A DNA stretch of 64,000 nucleotides from Populus alba (lineage: Eukaryota > Streptophyta > Magnoliopsida > Malpighiales > Salicaceae), in assembly GCF_005239225.2 (NCBI RefSeq), contig NC_133289.1, forward strand, positions 9,617,501 to 9,681,500. Direction: 5' to 3'. The first letter of the stretch is position 1. Each line of letters opens with the position of its first letter. Positions 12,601 to 49,828 of this stretch are shown piece by piece. A model generated the notes under the pieces. The model had not been told where the DNA came from. It saw only the letters and a list, made by a program, of their open reading frames with translations, and ran no database searches. The translations under genes were made by a program, and so were the position numbers.

Positions 12601-15600
12601 AGAAAAACTTACAAGTTTTGTATGGGGCTGGTGACATTTACTTCATAAGCTAAATTTTGCCTACTACTGTTTCAATAAGAAAACAGTTTTAGTGAGAAGG
12701 TTGCTACTTACACCTGGTGCTCTGTTCGTAACCGACTAACATTCTTAAGCTTGGGAACGGGAATGGAGGCAGCTTCTGCAGTTAAAGCAACTAAGGCCTT
12801 GGACATATCAGCTTCTTGAAGTTCCATATTCTCTTGCATATAGTTCTGTAAATTCTGAGTGAATTCTTCAATGTTTAGTTTGATGATGGGAATTTCATCA
12901 GGATCCTCGCAGAATGTATCCTCCATATCATTTTCTGTTACTTGTGTAGACACTGGTTCTGGTGATGATGGTTCTTCAATGATAGGTTCATAGTCAGTGA
13001 TTCTGGATTTGCTTTCTGCGAGCCTGCTTGCTTCTGGCTGTTGACTTCCTTCGGATTGTTTAGCTGTTTGGGGCAGGGGCAGGGGCAGGGGCAGGGGCAG
13101 TTGAGCAGCATCCACAGCAGGGTTTTGGCCAGATATGTTCTCGGTTGCACTCACTATACTTTTTTCTTCTGGTCCTGGAAGGGCAAGCCTTGCACTACAT
13201 CCAATAAGTTTATGATAAGTTAACAAATCTTGCTTTTAATGCATGTTAAGGAAAATGTTGTTCAGGGTATGTTTCTTAATTGGGATTTGTAAATGCCAAT
13301 TTAAGTATTTAACTGCAATATTTTCTTCATGGAAATGTTTGTCCATGGTATAATCAAACTATGAAGTTATAGCTGGTTTTTTTCTTAAAATCGTCATTTT
13401 TACTTAATAACTGAATAATCCATAACATTTGAAGCTTTGGTTAGTTGATCCAATTAAAAAAAAATTAACCTCCAGTTTTTATGAAAACTAAAGAGGGTTC
13501 TAGATGGTGGTAGGTTTATGGAACTAATTCCTGCATTTGTTTGCTACCATGCCAACCACATGGCAGTGCCATTGTAAGAAATGGAACAAATTATGTGCAA
13601 ACCTTGCAAATGCACTTGCAAAATGTCTGCATTCTCCTCTCATTGGACATGCATTGCAATTTGGTTTGCTTTTTGTACAGAATACCTGCATGATCTCAAA
13701 TAGTGCTTTCTTAGCTTGAGCTTTTCATAACCACAAAGAAGAGCATATCACTTCAAGTTTAAAGTATATGAAACACACCTTTCCAAATGTGATCATCTGA
13801 TAATGAAGCTCATACCTGTTTATGCATTAACAATGGATTAGTAAAATGTATTCATAATTAATTCTATTTGTACATTAAGTGTATTCACGAGTCGAGGTAA
13901 TGTCAAATGGAATATTTCTCTACAGTGTTCTTTGGTCAAGCTTGCACAATCGAGGCCAGAGGTATTTTTGAATTGATTCCAGCACAGGGTACCTGCACAT
14001 CAGCATATTAGTACTTGTGTCATAAGCATTTAGTTAGCATCAGTAGCCTTTCAGTTAATAATACTAACAGCTCTAAAAGATGCAGCTGAAGTGACTCAGG
14101 CAGTGGCTGAAGGGGGACCCATCCCAGTCGTACAGCTATGCGTCCAACATTTGTGTCAACCTGTTATGCAATATTTAGGGCTGAGATCTCTAATAGCCAA
14201 AAGTTGAGATCCGTATGTTGTTTTGTTTATGAAGTATGTCCAACTGATTAAAGCTTACTGGGAATGCTAGATGATGAAGTGTCAGAAGCCGTATGCACTC
14301 CACACTCTTCAGCCCCAATCCTCTAATGCTTAGCAGATACTCTCTGCAGTAGCAAGCTGTAACTAAGTATATATTTTTTTGTCTTGTTTTATAAAGCAAG
14401 CAACTGCATTTAATATTTCTAATAAAAAAATACAATCACTATATCATATGCTTAGCTACGGAGTAATGCCATGTTTATATGATAACTGCAGAAGTAGTAT
14501 TTTAATGCATTCAACTGATGCAGGCTATATGGTTAATCCTTTCGGCTTACTTTGCTTTGTCAGGTGGAATATCTCTCAACCATTCCAGATCAATGCTTCC
14601 ATGTTCTTTAACCAGTCGATTAAGCAAGTTCTGCATGGATTTTTCAGTCAGTATCAACTAAGATAGGCTCTAGCTTTGGTGGGTAACCATGCTTTAGAAA
14701 TCTTTGTTATTGATTGTGACATGTATACCTTTATCCGTTCTGCAAGTATGTTGTTCATCCCACGCTCTTTGATTGTGTTGGCAATCTCATTAACATCTGC
14801 ACATCTTACAGCTTCCCAGTCCAGTGAGTCCATTGTGTTTTCTGTTCCCTCTCTCTTTCCATTTGCTTCTGCCTCTTTTCTCAAGGCATCCCAGTCAACG
14901 TCATCTCTTATTTCATTTCCAACTCTTCTGCTTTTTGCTTTTCTGGTGGCAGCTTTCATCTCATTGAGCTCCTTACTTTGTGAATAACCAAGCTCAATCA
15001 TTTCAGACGCTGTTGTTTTTTGTGGATTCTTTTGCTGCCTATCAAATGCACTGGTACTTCCAGTTATATGCGTGGTTTCTCCTGAAAGGTTTTGTAAGTA
15101 TTGATTTTTCTGCAGGTAGTTATTTTGCATCTGAATCAATGAATTGTCAGTGACTTTGGGGTCCTCAACAGGCATGGCTGTAGACTGAACACTCGTATGC
15201 TTGTCTTTTTGAATGTCAATGCATGACTGATTATTTGACATGGGAGATCTTGATGCTTCTTGACTGATCAAGGTCAGCTTATTTTGATCAGTAATTTGAC
15301 TGGCCATTTCCACTGCAAGGGCATTGTGATCTTTTGCACTGTCTTCTTTTTTGTTTTTGGCTTTATCACCATATTGTGTTGCTTTAGGGATCATATCAAA
15401 GCAGTCAACCTTCACAGCTCCAGAGTTAGAAGTAAGGTGCCAATAACAATTACTGGATGTGACCATGGACACTCCTATGGGGCTTTTATGATCTTTCAAA
15501 CAGTCCATCTTGCCATTTCCTTGGCTGTAAGCATCTTGCATCAAGGGAGATCCAACCTTTCGCAGAAGCTCCATGAAAGATCTGCAATCGTTATAATTGT

Positions 15601-18600
15601 AGAGCTTTGATCCATCAGTGAGATATTCTCCTTCTGAGATGTTCTCCGAGCATGATTCTTTTTTCTCAGAAGCTTGGCCAATTGGAGAATTCACAGAGTT
15701 TTGACCAGAAATCACTGAATTTTGACTTGAGATTCCATCAATTACTTGTGTCCCTTCATCTACCATGTAACTTACCCTTCTGGTCATGGAGGTCTCAATG
15801 GTTGATCTGCTCGCCATTAACTGACTGAATGCATGTGGTTCAGTTTCAGAGGTGACAATGCCGGTACTACTTTCAGAGGATTCACTGCTTTTGACTACCT
15901 CTTGCTCTTCATCAGGCTCAATGTCATGGACAGTCAACGAACTCTGGCCACAGATTGATTGATTTGACACCTCATTCCATCTTATACCCTCTTCTGAATC
16001 TGGTATGAATTCTATTGGTTTTTCAATCACTAAGCTAGTCCTCTCATCATAGTATGGCTTGTTCTTTGACTTGAGGGGAAACCGTGCGGCAAGTGACATA
16101 AATGCAGAACTGCAGGAAAATGAATAAATGGTATAAGAGGTTTTCCTTTTGCCTTTTCTCTAATTATGCACTGTATCAAAATTATATGGGAAACTCAACT
16201 TTACCTAGAGAGATGATCTGAGACATTCTGGGTAAGAAATACTCCAATTACCGAGTCCACAACTGATCCCTTCCACGGAGAGAAGCGTCTGTCCCCTGTG
16301 TAATTGATATTGTACTGATATAGCATGAGTTCAAGAGTAATTTGAGTCCAAAATTTGGAGGAAAAGTTCAGGATAAAAAATGTAACTGGAATTTCTCAAC
16401 TGAATTGCTTATGAGGTTTCAAGGTTAATTTGTTTGGAATTTCAAATATGCAGATGTTTTATCTCCTGCCTGTTTCTACACTTTCTTAATTTCAATAATA
16501 TCTCCTTCTTGATAGTGGATTGTCTTATCTTATTTTTGCTGCGGACTAGTGTCACTATATCATGCTGGTCGTGAAATTGCTAATTGCACATCTTAGATTT
16601 CATTTATCAAGATATATAAAATGCTCCATGCTTATGACCTTGGCTTCTCTTCCTCATTAAATTTTGACCTTCAATATTCTTCTGATTTTCTAGACGATTC
16701 AGTTTATGCTAGACGGACTGGTTTTAATTTGATGGTAGAAAAATCTCATTTGAGGATAGAATTATCAACCTTGGCATTGAGACTTTTCTAGTACAAGAAA
16801 TCCTAACAGCTCTATGCTTAGTCTTGTACTACTGTTAAGCATTAGTCGACAGCAGGAACTAAGAACTTTCTATTTTATAAAGTTACTGAATCAGTGATTG
16901 GCTACTTTCCACTGAGAAGCCTGATGAGAAAATTTAAGAAAATTGTATCTGTACCTTGTACAAGATGCATCCGTGCTATAAATGAGTTTGCCCGTCCACA
17001 GAACACTGCCCTTTCTTCTTCCCACCATTTTGCCTTCTCATCATCTGTTCCGTCAATGCCTTCACTATTGATGTTTCCCATTAGAAGCTTCCAAACTCTA
17101 CTAGTTTCTTGATCTAGGTCAACCTTTGGGCGTGGGCGTCGCTTCCTGATGGATTCAAAAGAACCATCGTAGGGTACAACGGTGCCATCTCTTTTGTAAA
17201 GGACCAGTGCATTCCGCATATCATCTCCAATATTATAATGGACAAGTGCATTCTGCTCTTCAAATGCAATGTCATTGCTTTCCCTCTTGATGTCGAGATG
17301 CTTTAATTGCTCGACTATTGAATCAACAGAAAACATTTGTTTCCACATTTCTTCTGGATGAGCACCTGCATTAAATAGCTGTAAAAGTTAAAAAGGCACT
17401 TTGCGGATTTGCTAGGTTCCTCAGATTTCAAAAATTCTTACACGAGCCTGGTCTAAATTTGAAGTTCTTACATAAAGTACCTAATGCCTTGGCTGAGAAT
17501 TTGTGCTGATTATATACAACGATTTTTCCATGATATGGCACTGCATTTATACTGCAGGAACCTGAATTAACCAGAGAAGCTCTCTTCTTGGTCCTCTTTT
17601 TGGTTGTCCATGTCCCATTCATCTCTGCCAGCAGGGCTTCTACACTCACGTAAGGTCTGTGTGAGTTTCCTACTTGCTGCCCATTACAATCCACTGGTAC
17701 AAGTCTGTTTCGGTTAGTTGGGTGCAACGCACACCCTGGAATTGTGGTCACTGAAGCCAGATCCCGAATTTTAGTAGGACATCTGGACCTTTTTTTGGTT
17801 GATCTTGTTGTCTGGTTTATGCTATAGCCCAAAGTTTGCAGGTCATTGAGAAGATCTATTCTTTCTTCTACATGCTTGCCTGGAAGTCCATTACGAGGAG
17901 CAGCAGAAATCCAACAGTTGATATTGGGTGTGAAAGGATCTCTTTCAGGATCCTTCTGTGGGCATGTTGTTTCTACTATCGCAATGTCCTTTGCAGCAGT
18001 CACTGAGGATGATGTGCTTGATGTGGCTGGAGTTTGTCCCTTTTCTGACCTCTTTTTCTTTCGAAATAGTAGGGAAGGCATGGTTTGGTAAGCATTCAAA
18101 GAATTATAGTGAATCCCAGTTAGATTTGTGCTGCAGGTGTCTGGTTGTTCAGAATGCTTCCTCTTTGAACTGCTAGCCTGTCCTTCCAAAGTCGAAGTTG
18201 TGCTAGTGCTGCAATTGGAGCCATTAGGACTTATTGGAGTGATTTGTGCTGTGTCTTCCTGTACATTATGAGCAATCCCTTGATCTACCCCTTTCTCTTG
18301 TAAATTGCCACCCTGTTTGCCCTGTTGTTGACTAGTCTGGGCAGGACACAATGATGTGCTTGGTGCTTCTTTGTCCGGCAATGATACGTAATTTTTAAGC
18401 ATTTGATTTATAGAACGGGTAAGGTCATAGGCAATGCCTGCTTGTGTGGTTTCCACCATCACTTCAATTCCACGACCAAGAAACACAGTTGATTTTGATT
18501 GATTTATTGCTGCGCTTGTTTGTGCCTCTGGTTTAGAATCTAAGTCAAAAGGTGGACTGCATTTAGAGCTTTTGTCTCTAGGCTGCCTTTCTATATCAAA

Positions 18601-19929
18601 ATTTAAGGCCCTTCTGCAAGACTTCTTGGCCGGTTCAATTATCTTTGGATCAGCAGACTGTCCATTTGCTTCTGCTGGGGAACTTGCTGGTGCTTTACCG
18701 AGCGCCTTCTTTCGAACATACTTTCTCTTACCAGTTGGCTTTTCAGTAGAAGCAGCAGACATGGGGGTCGTTGATTTTTGTAGCCCTTTGGGTTTGCCTT
18801 CGTTGATGACCTTGGGCCTGTGCTTTTTCCTCCTTGGTTTCTGCTGTGGTGTTCTGTTCAGGTCAATAACATCGCCGTCTCTCCTGTCAGGGTTGTGATT
18901 CTCCTTTAACACAGGGGACCCAACAGCAAACGATGAATTTGTTGCTCGCTGTAGGAGTTCTTCATCAGTTTGGAGGCCACTGGCATCAGCTCCCCTGGAA
19001 ACAATTCTATCATCACTAAATTCTTGATTTCCTGAATGTGTGCATAAATTTTGCATTTCTGTGATCTTTTTGGACTCCACTTTCATGCCCTTGTCTGGCG
19101 TTACAGGAGCAAACTGGGAGGTGGTCTCGGCAGGGAATGCGTTTGCCTCCCCCCCTGGAAGAAATTATCACCACAAGCAGTTTCAGTAAAAAATATAAAT
19201 TTCATGGAGACAAATTATTTCCAGATCGATGAAGAAACTAAAATTACAAAAGCTTCTCTTGGGAATGATACTGGAAACTTGTTCCTACATCCAAAAGGAC
19301 TTTTTTTTCTCTCCTTTTTCTGGACAAAATGACACGCAGAGTCTCTGTCCATTGTGTGTTTCACTATTGATTTATTATATCATTGATGTCTGAATGAATT
19401 CCATTTGTTGTTGTAATCATTTTCTCTATCTCTATTGCTACACCCTGCAGGTACTAGGCAGCTAAATGAATGCACATGAGGGAATGCCTAGGTGAAATAA
19501 AAGCCAAGGATACAGAAATGAGTTTTTTCTAAAGCCAACTCGGTTATGCTTACACTTGGGTTCCTGGATGTAGTTGCCAATAATCCATGGATTTAAATGT
19601 TCCCTGGAAGCTGCATCTGCAAGAGCCAACAGAGGGTCGTCCAAAGACATAGGGTTCCATGTAGCTGTATTACCAGTGGAGCACTCTCTGGATGTTTCGA
19701 CATAGTCATTACCGGCGCCGCCCTTTTCTGCACCTCTAGCAGCCGCCTCCCAATTGGAACCGGAGGGAGGACAACACTCACCCAATCCAGATAACCCCTT
19801 TATTTCTGAACTACTTGCTTGGTCTAACTCGTTTCCCTGCCTGTCTGTGTAGATCACACGAGGTAGGATATGCCTAAAATGACTTTGTGGAATCCATGAC
19901 TCCTTTTGGCTCTGCCTGCTGACATCCAT
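9672..19929 (-). CDS. ROS1: ROS1/DEMETER-family 5-methylcytosine DNA glycosylase/lyase
   Basis: Nuclear bifunctional DNA glycosylase/AP lyase that excises 5-methylcytosine to start active DNA demethylation. Nineteen coding exons join in frame to 1,812 codons: 19929-19554, 19154-17481, 17365-16955, 16295-16205, 16109-14729, 14630-14551, 14343-14259, 14160-14069, 13992-13924, 13815-13779, 13685-13603, 13194-12712, 12429-12393, 12294-12237, 11276-11137, 11018-10953, 10862-10748, 10669-10631, 9793-9672. Visible features: a basic stretch near residues 229-285 (KKHRPK, KRKYVRKK); conserved core from about 684; a long variable insert in exon 5; helix-hairpin-helix with the predicted catalytic Lys in GLGLKSVE (about 1350) and Asp in DTNVGR (about 1368); a CX6CX2CX5C iron-sulphur motif (1435-1451); a permuted CXXC-like cysteine cluster (1666-1683); and the C-terminal RRM-like domain. 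The wording around VWKLLMGNINSEG is closer to ROS1 than to DME, so the symbol means ROS1-like. One oddity is Cys in the usually VFRGRADSF motif (VFCGRANSF). Confidence 0.93.
11277..12236 (-). other. Large intron 14 of the demethylase gene
   Basis: This 960-nt intron separates the exon ending in ATATGGACACCAG (12,237) from the exon that begins at 11,276 with GCGAAACAGC. Donor GTAGGT and acceptor ATTAG are canonical. I see no conserved frame, RNA gene or bounded insertion in it, only short chance open frames. Confidence 0.7.
13070..13100 (+). repeat. GGGGCA hexamer repeat with G-quadruplex potential inside the demethylase exon
   Basis: Five GGGG runs spaced by CA lie on the plus strand (13,070-73, 13,076-79, 13,082-85, 13,088-91, 13,094-97), that is, on the template strand of exon 12 of the demethylase gene. 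On the coding strand the unit reads CCCCTG/TGCCCC and encodes a Leu-Pro repeat in the variable linker after the iron-sulphur motif. Multiples of six keep the frame, so copy number could vary without breaking the gene. Confidence 0.85.
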
Positions 19930-40516: not shown

Positions 40517-43135
40517 ATGGAGTTCTGGGGTAAAACAATTTTTTTTTATCTCAAACATGCTAGCATTTCGATCGATGGATCCATTTTCACTTTTGTGATT
40601 TTGGTTCTCGAATTTTTCATCTTGAAAACAACAGAAATCTTGATTTTAATTGATGTTTTCGCCGTTTTGTCGTTTGTTATGCTCAGGTGTTGAGGTCAAA
40701 GGTGGAGAACCCCTTAGGGTTGAAAGTGGTGATGGCTTCATCCTCCATCTTTCGCAGGTTCTGAACGGGATTTCCGGTTAACTTTGTTTGGCATTTTTAC
40801 ATATTTAGTTGCTCTTTTTTTTTTTCCTTGACAGGCTTGCCTTGGCGAGGCCAAGAAGGACAAAGGGAATGAATCTGTCTGCCTATTTGTGAATTTTGAT
40901 GATCAGAAGCTTGTTCTTGGAACACTGTCTTATGAGAAAATCCCTCAAATACCTTTTGATCTTGTCTTCGAGAAAGACTTCGAGCTCTCTCATAACTTGA
41001 AAAATGGGAGTGTTTTCTTCAGCGGATACAAAGTTGCTCAACCCGAATATCCTTTTACACAGATTAATGTTTCATAATGCCTTTTTTCAGTTTTTATAAT
41101 TCTCATGTTACTGGTTTTCTGTTTTCTCTTCTTTTTGTCTCCTTGACTGCCTTCTTGTCATTTCGTTACGAGTGATAGCGACGGTGAGTCATTTTGATGC
41201 ATTTCCATTTTTTTTTCAATTCTGAATTTGGGTTTTTTCAATAATCCTTGAATAAGCACCTTTTTTTTTTTTTTTACCTTTCAGAGTTTAATTCTGATGG
41301 TGAAGAGGATCTCCCAATCCCTGTTGATAACGGTAGTGTTAATGTTTGCTTTGTGCATTGTCTTGTACTCGTTTCCACCTGACTTGATGTGATGATCTTT
41401 TTAAATTTGTAGGGAAAAAAGAGGCAAAGCAACCAAATCCTGAAAACGAAAATGCTGCAAAACCTGATTCTAAGCAGAAGGTGAAGATTGTGGAACCGAA
41501 CAAAGATGGGAAACCCAAACCAGAGAATGATGATAGCAGTGATGAAGAGGATGATTCATCTGATGATGGCGAGTCAAGCGATGATCAGGTACTGATTTTT
41601 GTCTGTAGGCTGTTATTTGAGTTTGGCTTTCTGCTTGCACATCTCTGACCTCTTAAGGCTACAGTAGCTGAAACATTGACATGAACACACCAGTTAAAGT
41701 AGGCTTTGCTTAATTGTGGAGAAAATTGCAAATGACCTACAGAAGAGTGAAAACTATGTGCCAGCTGCTTAAGGATCTCTGATACCCATTTACCTTCACT
41801 GCGAGTGATCCATCGAATTGCATTTATTGCTCAATCTTTGTGTGAGGACTTGTCCCATGGATACAAAATATGGTGCTTAGCTGAGTGTGAAATCAATCAA
41901 ATTATCAGTTATCTAACCAGTTCCATTAGAGAACTAATTTTGGTTGGTGCAATGACTATTAATTAGTTACCTATATGGAAGTGTATTTGTTTTAGCTAAT
42001 CTTAACTGATTCATGGTCATGTTTGGTTGCTGTATTGGTAATCAAGCATATCTTTTCAAGATTAATTTTCCAGAGCAATGTTTGTTTATTAGAGTTGCTT
42101 AGTTAGAATGGTTTGTTTTGCCATTTGGAGTTTTTTTTATTCTTTGTTGAGTTGAATTCATGGTTAACCATTCACTGCATTTAGTTGCTTGTTATAGATT
42201 GGAGTTATGACATCTTTTGATTTTGCTAACTTTCATGGTAATTCCTTCAGGCAATGATGATGGCCAATGATGAGGATGAGAGTAGTGAGGACGAGGATGA
42301 TGAAAGTGATGAAGAAGATGATGACAGTGATGATGGGGATGTGAAGACTCCAAAGAAGGTGGGAGTGCTTGTATCCTTGCATGTCAATATGTTTGACTTA
42401 AAACAATATTCCTGAGTTTGTCCTGAGGTTATACTGATTGGGGTTGTCTGTGATTTTTACTATTGCAGGCTGAAGTGGGCAAGAAGAGATCCGCAGAATC
42501 TGCTTCAAAAAACCCTGTACCTGATAAGAAGACTAAATTTGTAACTCCTCAAAAAACTGGTGATTTTCTGTCTCATTGCCTTTCCTTCTTTCTCAAGGGA
42601 TAAGGGTAGTGTGTTTTCTTATTCATTTTTCAGTTTTTTCACATGATTACCTTTGGATAGCATTTAATTGTCGTCTCAGATGTAAATATTGATGCCTTAG
42701 ATGGGGAATTGGTTTGGTATCTTATTTCATGTGTTTATACATCAGTTCGTTTCATCTGTTCTTTTTGTTGGATGCTATCTTGTTTTAACCTATTTTGCCT
42801 ACTTAAATGTGCATAGTTTAGTTTGATGCCCTTGCCACGGTGTTATTATTTTCAAATTATAGATGACTGGCTGACTGATTGTGCAGATTTGAAGAAAACA
42901 GGTGTCCATATAGCAACTCCTCACCCTTCTAAACAAGCTGCAAAAACACCTGCTAACAGTCAGAGGAAGGAGCAGGCCCAAAAATCCTTTTCTTGCAGCT
43001 CTTGCAACAGGTATATTACATGGTCTGCTTCTGAGATTAATCTTCTTCAGAGTCTTACATTGAAATTTTTGCAGGTCGTTTGGCTCGGAAAACGCGTTAC
43101 AATCACATTCAAAGGCTAAGCACAGTGCTGCATAG
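40517..43135 (+). CDS. HDT: HD2-type (plant-specific) histone deacetylase
   Basis: Plant-specific nucleoplasmin-like HD2/HDT protein acting in nucleolar and chromatin histone deacetylation and gene repression. Ten exons join in frame to 305 aa plus stop: 40517-40529, 40687-40757, 40835-41046, 41170-41183, 41285-41332, 41413-41588, 42251-42358, 42469-42559, 42887-43010, 43075-43135. The N-terminus MEFWGVEVKGGEPL is the family hallmark. The conserved His is at 25 (FILHLSQ) and the conserved Asp near 70 (IPFDLVF), with FELSHNLKNGSVFFSGYK following. The middle is a long acidic Asp/Glu/Ser region interleaved with Lys-rich stretches, and the C-terminus has one C2H2 zinc finger (CX2CX12HX4H, residues 281-302). 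The third intron has U12-type signals rather than GT-AG. The paralogue number within HDT cannot be assigned from this alone. Confidence 0.94.
41047..41169 (+). other. U12-type (AT-AC) intron in the HD2 gene
   Basis: After exon 3 (ending CAACCCGA) there is no usable GT donor: the only nearby one would leave an out-of-frame or stopped message. The intron instead starts ATATCCTTTT, an exact minor-spliceosome 5' splice-site consensus. A branch-site match TCTCCTTGAC lies at about 41,139-41,147, and the intron can end at CGTTAC (41,169), giving exon GAGTGATAGCGACG. Ending 3 nt later at GAG (41,172) is also in frame, giving an AT-AG intron. Either choice restores the conserved frame into EFNSDGEEDLP. 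If retained, the frame meets TAA at 41,075-41,077. Confidence 0.88.
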
Positions 43136-48387: not shown

Positions 48388-49828
48388 CTAGTGCTGGGCA
48401 TCATCATAATGGCCACCATTCTCTGCGAAGTCACTGTTATCCCTGTCATTTTCAGGGTTTCTGCTATCACCTCTACCACCAGATTCTGTCTGTTCCTTTT
48501 CCCTGTTCCACTTTTCAATCTTAGCCCTTCTTTCAGCACTACTCTCTCTGACAGGACTCCTGTTTCTCCTCCCCCCAGGGCTATTTCGTCCTCCCCTGCG
48601 TGCAGGACTTCGGCTTCTAGGTCTCCTGCCCCTTTCATTGTGATGCTCCCTGTCATCCTCTCTCCTATTCAAACCACGGCCACCATGCGGACGCTCCTCA
48701 TGACCACGGTGCCTTTCAGGACTATGGCTTCTACTGCGGCTACGTCTTCGCCTGTTCCTCCCAAATAACTGCCTCCTCAATTCCCTAAAACCGACAATGA
48801 AAAAATTGGTTAGACCACCAAGTCCCCAAGTTATTGGGATATCTGCTGGACAAACAATTACGCAGAGAAAGCCACCTGCTAATCTTCTTAAGATGCATGA
48901 AGTTGCAGTAGCCACCTCGATTGCAAACATTTTCCTCATATTGCCTACATGTAGCTTCGCGGAAATCCGTGACAGGAGAAAAGTCAACAATGATGGGTCG
49001 CCCTGGCATGTTGAGGGTTAATGAAATTATCAAAATGTGCCTCCATATTAAACTCTTCTTAAAACACAACCGAAATATCATACAGGTAAGCTATTTCCTA
49101 CAAATACTTAGAGCAGAAGCAGAACCAAAACAAACCTGGGAAAACATTTAAAATAGGAAAATCCAATACATAAAAGATCATTGAAAGTTGAATGACTAAC
49201 AAGGAATTGTTTACAACCATTAAAATTAAAATGATAGCTATACGTTTAATATAAGAATAACACTAAACAAAAACTCACAAGAAAAAAAGGGAGGGATTAT
49301 GAATGGTAATAACCTGCATAAAACCTTCCGTTAAGATTGCGAAGGGCATTAGCAGCGTGCTCTTCTTCTCTAAACTGGACATACACATTACCCACCTGCT
49401 TACACAACAAGTCCAAAAAAAAACAGCAACCCATTAAATTAACTCTTGGATTTTACTTTGTTTAATTCAGAAAAAAGAAGAGAAAAAAAAAGAAGTACCA
49501 TGTGGTCAGCAAGATTATCACAGATATTTAAGCTCTCAATATCACCATACTTGCTGAGTTCTTCAAACAAATCCTCATAAAAATCCTCAAAGTGGTCTTG
49601 GATCTTCCGGGGATCGAGGGACTGTGATTGAGCCTGAGGATCCACTCCAGGAGTGAGCATGTCAGGTCTCTGGTACATGTTGGAGAGCAACAGGGTTGGG
49701 CTGATTGTCGGCTTTGTGTGGAGTCTTGAGCATCGATCACCATGTCTGCAGGCTCCGATCTTGAAGTAAAAAGGACAGTTCACCCTGTCTTTCTCTGTCC
49801 CGAATATGGATGCTAAGTGCTCCGCCAT
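48388..49828 (-). pseudogene. U2AF35: U2AF small subunit (U2AF35) gene with a 2-bp frameshift
   Basis: U2AF35 recognises the AG of U2-type 3' splice sites in the spliceosome. Exons: 49828-49499, 49397-49314, 49002-48876, 48784-48388. The first exon encodes [20 protein letters not shown] and the first CCCH zinc finger; exons 2-3 the U2AF-homology RRM and second CCCH finger ([15 protein letters not shown]); exon 4 a full Arg-Ser-rich tail. The exon total is 938 nt, not a multiple of three. At about 49,379-49,383 the conserved [10 protein letters not shown] coding is interrupted because GTATGTCC appears as GTATGTGTCC, an extra GT next to a short GT repeat. The frame changes after about residue 116 and meets TGA at the start of exon 4, predicting about 182 aa. 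Everything else, including splice sites, is intact, so this may be a recent null allele, a young pseudogene or a sequencing error; hence the pseudogene type is provisional. Confidence 0.8.

Follow-up and report, generated by a model that had tools for sequence, protein, structure and literature searches.

A U12-type AT-AC intron very probably separates the nucleoplasmin-like core and the acidic tail of an HD2-type gene in Populus alba

Between positions 40,517 and 43,135 (+) of a 64-kb stretch of Populus alba DNA (hereafter, the window), ten exons encode a complete HD2/HDT protein of 305 amino acids, as given by the gene model and its translation (Table 1). On the basis of this protein sequence, the gene belongs to the HD2/HDT family and is HDT1-like. 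The N-terminal MEFWG nucleoplasmin-like (NPL) domain of these proteins is present at residues 3-94 (Pfam, 66.5 bits, E 3.6e-18; PDB HDT1, E 6.8e-28), and PDB searches rank highest the cores of HDT1, HDT3, HDT2, and HDT4, which we take to be the Arabidopsis proteins, each aligned over residues 1-95 or 1-96. An acidic central tract is evident in the translation, and matches to C-terminal C2H2 fingers near residues 279-303 all stay below the Pfam cut-off (zf-C2H2_6, 22 bits vs a 25-bit cut-off). Both the acidic tract and the C-terminal C2H2 finger are variable within the HD2/HDT family. Among the relatives, the annotated P. alba protein P0121 (D5086_012768) matches a query that retains the third intron at 100% identity, covering 96% of that query, and P0009, which comes from a P. 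alba hybrid, shares 94% identity with the spliced protein across 71% of its length. In the 64-kb window, no RNA family was detected by Rfam and no tRNA by ARAGORN.

Table 1. Exons of the HD2 gene and elements of its third intron, with positions in the window
Feature	Positions	Strand	Basis
HD2 exon 1 (ATGGAGTTCTGGG)	40517..40529	+	gene model
HD2 exon 2	40687..40757	+	gene model
HD2 exon 3, holds most of the nucleoplasmin-like domain; phase 2 end (..CCC GA)	40835..41046	+	gene model; Pfam NPL residues 3-94
HD2 intron 3, AT-AC, very probably U12 type, 123 nt, 69% AT	41047..41169	+	motifs, frame, protein-level junction
U12-type 5' splice site ATATCCTTT	41047..41055	+	exact consensus match
TAA met on retention of intron 3, after 108 residues	41075..41077	+	translation
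Branch-site match CTCCTTGAC (TCCTTGAC at 41,140-41,147), branch A 41,146	41139..41147	+	motif match
AC acceptor, predicted to be the one in use	41168..41169	+	P0001 and P0051, protein level
HD2 exon 4, 14-nt micro-exon with the U12-type intron on one side and a GT-AG intron on the other	41170..41183	+	gene model
HD2 exon 5	41285..41332	+	gene model
HD2 exon 6, acidic tail begins	41413..41588	+	gene model
HD2 exon 7, acidic tract	42251..42358	+	gene model
HD2 exon 8	42469..42559	+	gene model
HD2 exon 9	42887..43010	+	gene model
HD2 exon 10 and stop, zinc-finger-like C-terminus	43075..43135	+	gene model; zf-C2H2 match below cut-off

While eight of the nine introns are GT-AG, intron 3 is AT-AC. 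The last base of exon 3 is 41,046 (..CAACCCGA), and the intron opens with ATATCCTTTT at 41,047. An initial annotation, made from the DNA sequence only, had seen no workable GT donor after exon 3, and the scores agree: the 12 GT dinucleotides in 40,990-41,183 reach -3.8 to 3.9 on a weight matrix, compared to 5.0-8.9 for the eight GT donors of the gene. The U12 donor and branch-site match described in the same annotation likewise hold up. The donor has 0 mismatches to (A/G)TATCCTT, as against 4-7 in the other eight introns, and the branch site has a single mismatch to TTCCTTRAC, with G as its upstream purine. The distance from the branch A to the intron end, estimated earlier at about 23 nt, is indeed 23 nt, which is on the long side for U12 introns. 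CGTTAC closes the intron at 41,169, and the translation of exon 4 (GAGTGATAGCGACG) confirms the earlier proposal that this acceptor restores the frame. On the same weight matrix, the GT donor of this micro-exon scores best among the GT donors of the gene. Another branch-site candidate, TTCCTTGAC in intron 2, was rejected and read as a pyrimidine tract because its A lies only 3 nt before the end of that intron, whose donor has 7 mismatches.

Taken singly, the motifs say little in a window of 33% GC: RTATCCTTT was seen twice with 2.42 occurrences expected, which is chance level, and the six copies of TCCTTRAC vs 3.78 expected are unremarkable. As a strict ordered set (ATATCCTTT...TCCTTRAC...AC), they occur once in the window and in one of 300 shuffled windows with preserved dinucleotides; a looser U12 set is likewise found once, and in five of the 300 shuffles. 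The set sits precisely at the edge of a coding exon.

The initial annotation had left the acceptor ambiguous by one codon, between AC at 41,169 and AG at 41,172. All junctions of intron 3 are read here from protein sequences, among them P0001, which shares 97% identity with the window protein and stands for a cluster (source lgn) of 33 members on 22 contigs, the longest of 1,555 nt, that is seen through this representative alone. Its first residues, MSEQSLSRCQTMEFWGVEV, match the translation of the window leader plus exon 1 (VSEQSLSRRQTMEFW) and continue into exon 2 without intron 1; because of this and of the short contigs, we take P0001 to be a spliced transcript, presumably from an RNA source. 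At the junction it reads KVAQPESDSDEF, which contains AQPESDSDEF including the residues of exon 4. When five placements of the borders were translated (AT-AC, AT-AG, AA-TA, AT-GT, and TA-CG), AT-AC and TA-CG both gave AQPESDSD as in P0001; AT-AG, AA-TA, and AT-GT gave AQPDDSDEF, AQPASDSD, and AQPDTSDSD, respectively, none of which fits. TA-CG, the one-base alternative, predicts LLNPKVIATS, and the Salix koriyanagi model P0051 has R instead. This model is frame-shifted, and AT-AC predicts LLNPRVIATS there, in agreement with P0051, making AT-AC the sole placement of the five to fit both proteins. Two rows run contrary to it: the Salix udensis model P0002 has AQPDTSDSDEF, as an AT-GT intron ending at 41,166 would give, and in P0012, from Salix suchowensis, the sequence is LLNPKSDSDEF, which none of the five placements explains. 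As to AG at 41,172, an AT-AG intron would keep the frame and place acidic residues at the junction, but as the main form it appears very unlikely, given that its product AQPDDSD is found in none of the 258 relatives listed and that AQPESDSDEF is what P0001 and P0004 (Salix suchowensis) show, the two among these 258 to carry it. At the protein level this resolves the ambiguity in favor of AC at 41,169, which we infer to be the acceptor in use.

How intron 3 is drawn in public gene models bears on two further alternatives. Across 14 orthologue-like Salicaceae rows (P0001-P0009, P0011, P0012, P0051, P0121, and P0122, with P0001 placed by identity), AQPESDSDEF is intact in two, P0001 and P0004, P0002 has the variant given above, and in the remaining 11 the junction is missing, lengthened, or displaced. 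The automatic models P0003, P0005-P0009, P0011, P0121, and P0122 also disagree with each other at this intron, the junctions being 41,069/41,307 in P0009, 41,010/41,284 in P0003, 41,033/41,286 in P0006, and a GC donor at 41,022 with 41,284 in P0005. These last four match some of the 21 combinations that left the frame open among 124 GT/GC-AG combinations tried, as would suit a GT-AG intron that replaces AT-AC, starts from a weak donor within exon 3 or shortly downstream of it, skips exon 4, and makes the U12 motifs coincidental. We nonetheless hold such an intron to be highly improbable. The donors at 41,069, 41,010, and 41,033 score -0.2, 0.7, and 1.1 on the weight matrix, and with 41,012 included the range is -1.2 to 1.1, vs 5.0-8.9 for the GT donors of the gene (scores that leave out a fifth GT, 40,964, and three GC donors); none of the 21 combinations yields the AQPESDSDEF of P0001. 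Moreover, mutual disagreement is what would be expected of models from which AT-AC borders were barred, and this is apparently why they differ. Other sequences read into intron 3, namely the annotated 115-aa P. alba protein P0121 (D5086_012768) and, in other plants, many short models or ORFs, and one might suppose that the intron stays unspliced in most transcripts, the gene mainly making a 108-aa protein. This seems scarcely credible in view of P0001, which represents 33 members on 22 short contigs and is without the intron; the short models would again be the output of predictors denied AT-AC, and many of the rows look like genomic ORFs. An AT-AC intron offers a reason for the discordant poplar and willow models at this site. 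Under a GT-AG restriction, predictors omit the linker that joins the HD2 core to the acidic tail or put something else in its place, and work on HD2 in trees will need corrected gene models.

When read through in phase 2, the donor ATATCCTTT encodes x-Y-P-F/L, and [E/G]-Y-P-[F/L/S] is found at the same place in read-through models and ORFs of eudicots, a magnoliid, and monocots, the named rows including Vitis, Eucalyptus, Theobroma, Solanum, Olea, Thlaspi, Arachis, Protea, Cinnamomum, Musa, Colocasia, Dendrobium, and Eleusine. The 258 relatives comprise the best 120 of 1,048 for the spliced query, 56 of 56 for the retained-intron query, and the best 120 of 880 for profile A2, of which 82 were new. 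With the end of the core domain as anchor, 12 of the 258 rows were left out as having none, among them P0149 and P0209, which read EYP. A comparison of HD2 genes across plants had been suggested in the initial annotation, and at the protein level, where the +1 base may be A or G, the donor signature proved to be conserved: YP lies within 18 residues of the core-domain end in 81 of 246 anchored relatives, these rows being clusters, some of one species, and not an independent species sample. Broken down by query, the tally is 14/113 for the query without YP, 41/54 for the retained-intron query, and 26/79 for the new rows found with A2, two of the three queries favoring YP rows, one by its retained-intron peptide and the other by its origin in A2, which has YP in all rows. 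Elsewhere in the anchored proteins, YP occurs 35 times per 56,382 residues. The residue preceding YP allows a purine at intron +1 in 79 of the 81 rows, P0092 and P0194 having a D that does not, whereas 22% of upstream linker residues fail to allow one; the residue following is F in 49, L in 12, and S in 11 of the 81. We infer that the common ancestor of the listed angiosperms had an (A/G)TATCC donor at the site of intron 3, with A and G at +1 not separable from proteins. Scans of viral and genome contigs with profile A2 returned pattern matches (74 and 38 stretches, respectively) and no relative. One plant HD2-like protein, P0233, carries a Ralstonia pseudosolanacearum label, its contig being 502 bases long, and most likely reflects host contamination.

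Because the sequence elements, the frame, the transcript-type relative, and the angiosperm-wide donor signature all point the same way, we consider it very probable that 41,047-41,169 is a genuine U12-type AT-AC intron of an HD2-type (HDT1-like) Populus gene, old and conserved, between the nucleoplasmin-like core and the acidic tail. A rare intron class is thereby supported in a forest-tree gene for a chromatin protein, with its junction settled at the protein level and its donor, as indicated above, kept across angiosperms. Removal of this segment yields the complete 305-aa HD2; in the predicted spliced mRNA, ..CCCGA would be joined to GAGTGATAGC.. and encode ..AQPESDSDEF... The intron would presumably be removed by U11/U12-U4atac/U6atac.U5, and limiting minor machinery would be predicted to cost the cell full-length HD2, with the retained form stopping early.

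That retention would give a TAA after about 108 residues had been noted before, and the translation bears this out: the product (peptide ..VAQPEYPFTQINVS) is 108 residues long and ends just past the nucleoplasmin-like core. Skipping of exon 4 shifts the frame into an immediate stop and leaves 100 residues ending AQPEV, such that both forms have the whole core and no tail. Most of the transcripts that keep the intron would probably be degraded by nonsense-mediated decay. Less full-length HD2 is likely when minor splicing is limiting, and it is plausible that HD2 output is limited by it. In human cells, AT-AN minor introns are described as having a relatively high basal retention (PMC8280824). 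Pentamers of HD2 cores pair into a dimer according to PMC4414354, which also argues against histone deacetylase activity, a disputed property of HD2/HDT proteins. Intron 3 retention or exon 4 skipping might then constitute a regulated switch, in which an oligomer-forming core of ~100 residues (108 or 100) without acidic tail and zinc finger mixes into HD2 pentamers, poisons them, and couples chromatin state to minor-spliceosome capacity. We think this improbable, and a dominant-negative HD2 core is speculation.

The idea that HD2 relies on AT-AC splicing is not new. In the Arabidopsis drol1 mutant, AT-AC splicing reportedly falls in plant-specific histone deacetylase genes, as Suzuki et al. 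2022 (Plant J 109:633) are said to have found. The poplar gene resembles the reported Arabidopsis case in being an HD2-type gene with an AT-AC intron; it differs in species, and the likeness drawn here is one of gene and intron type. DROL1 mutations cause defects in the splicing of AT-AC U12 introns in Arabidopsis, as described in PMC11039992. A literature search on HD2 with AT-AC/U12, the Arabidopsis HD2 loci, and rgh3 gave, among the matches listed, no title or abstract opening on HD2 minor introns, and HD2, HDT, HDA, and histone deacetylase are all absent from the main text of PMC4892727. Another case is intron 4 of plant CBP20, a U12 AT-AC intron present in each of the ten plant species studied (PMC5932401), which similarly lies between a folded core and a less conserved tail. 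In contrast with poplar HD2, where the upstream purine of the branch site is G, almost all CBP20 branch sites have A, which PMC5932401 links to efficient U12 splicing in plants. Otherwise, the poplar intron has the elements of conserved minor introns of the U12DB/intronIC type, namely a ATATCCTT donor, the U12 consensus in PMC2831892, a TCCTTAAC-like branch site, and an AC end, with no structural difference from them. Minor intron densities are reported to be stable in land plants (PMC2831892 and PMC10639083).

Two neighboring loci deserve mention. Long ORFs at 12711-19929 (-) resemble, by eye, parts of a DEMETER/ROS1-type DNA demethylase gene; Pfam returned no match for four ORFs of this region, ORF 19462-19929 being left out. 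On the other side of the HD2 gene, ORFs at 49442-49828 and 48391-48990 (-) resemble a U2AF small-subunit (U2AF35) gene, the former with a CCCH zinc finger by Pfam and the latter, which has no Pfam match, with an RS-rich stretch recognized by eye. That a gene for a splicing factor lies a few kb from HD2 is probably a coincidence.
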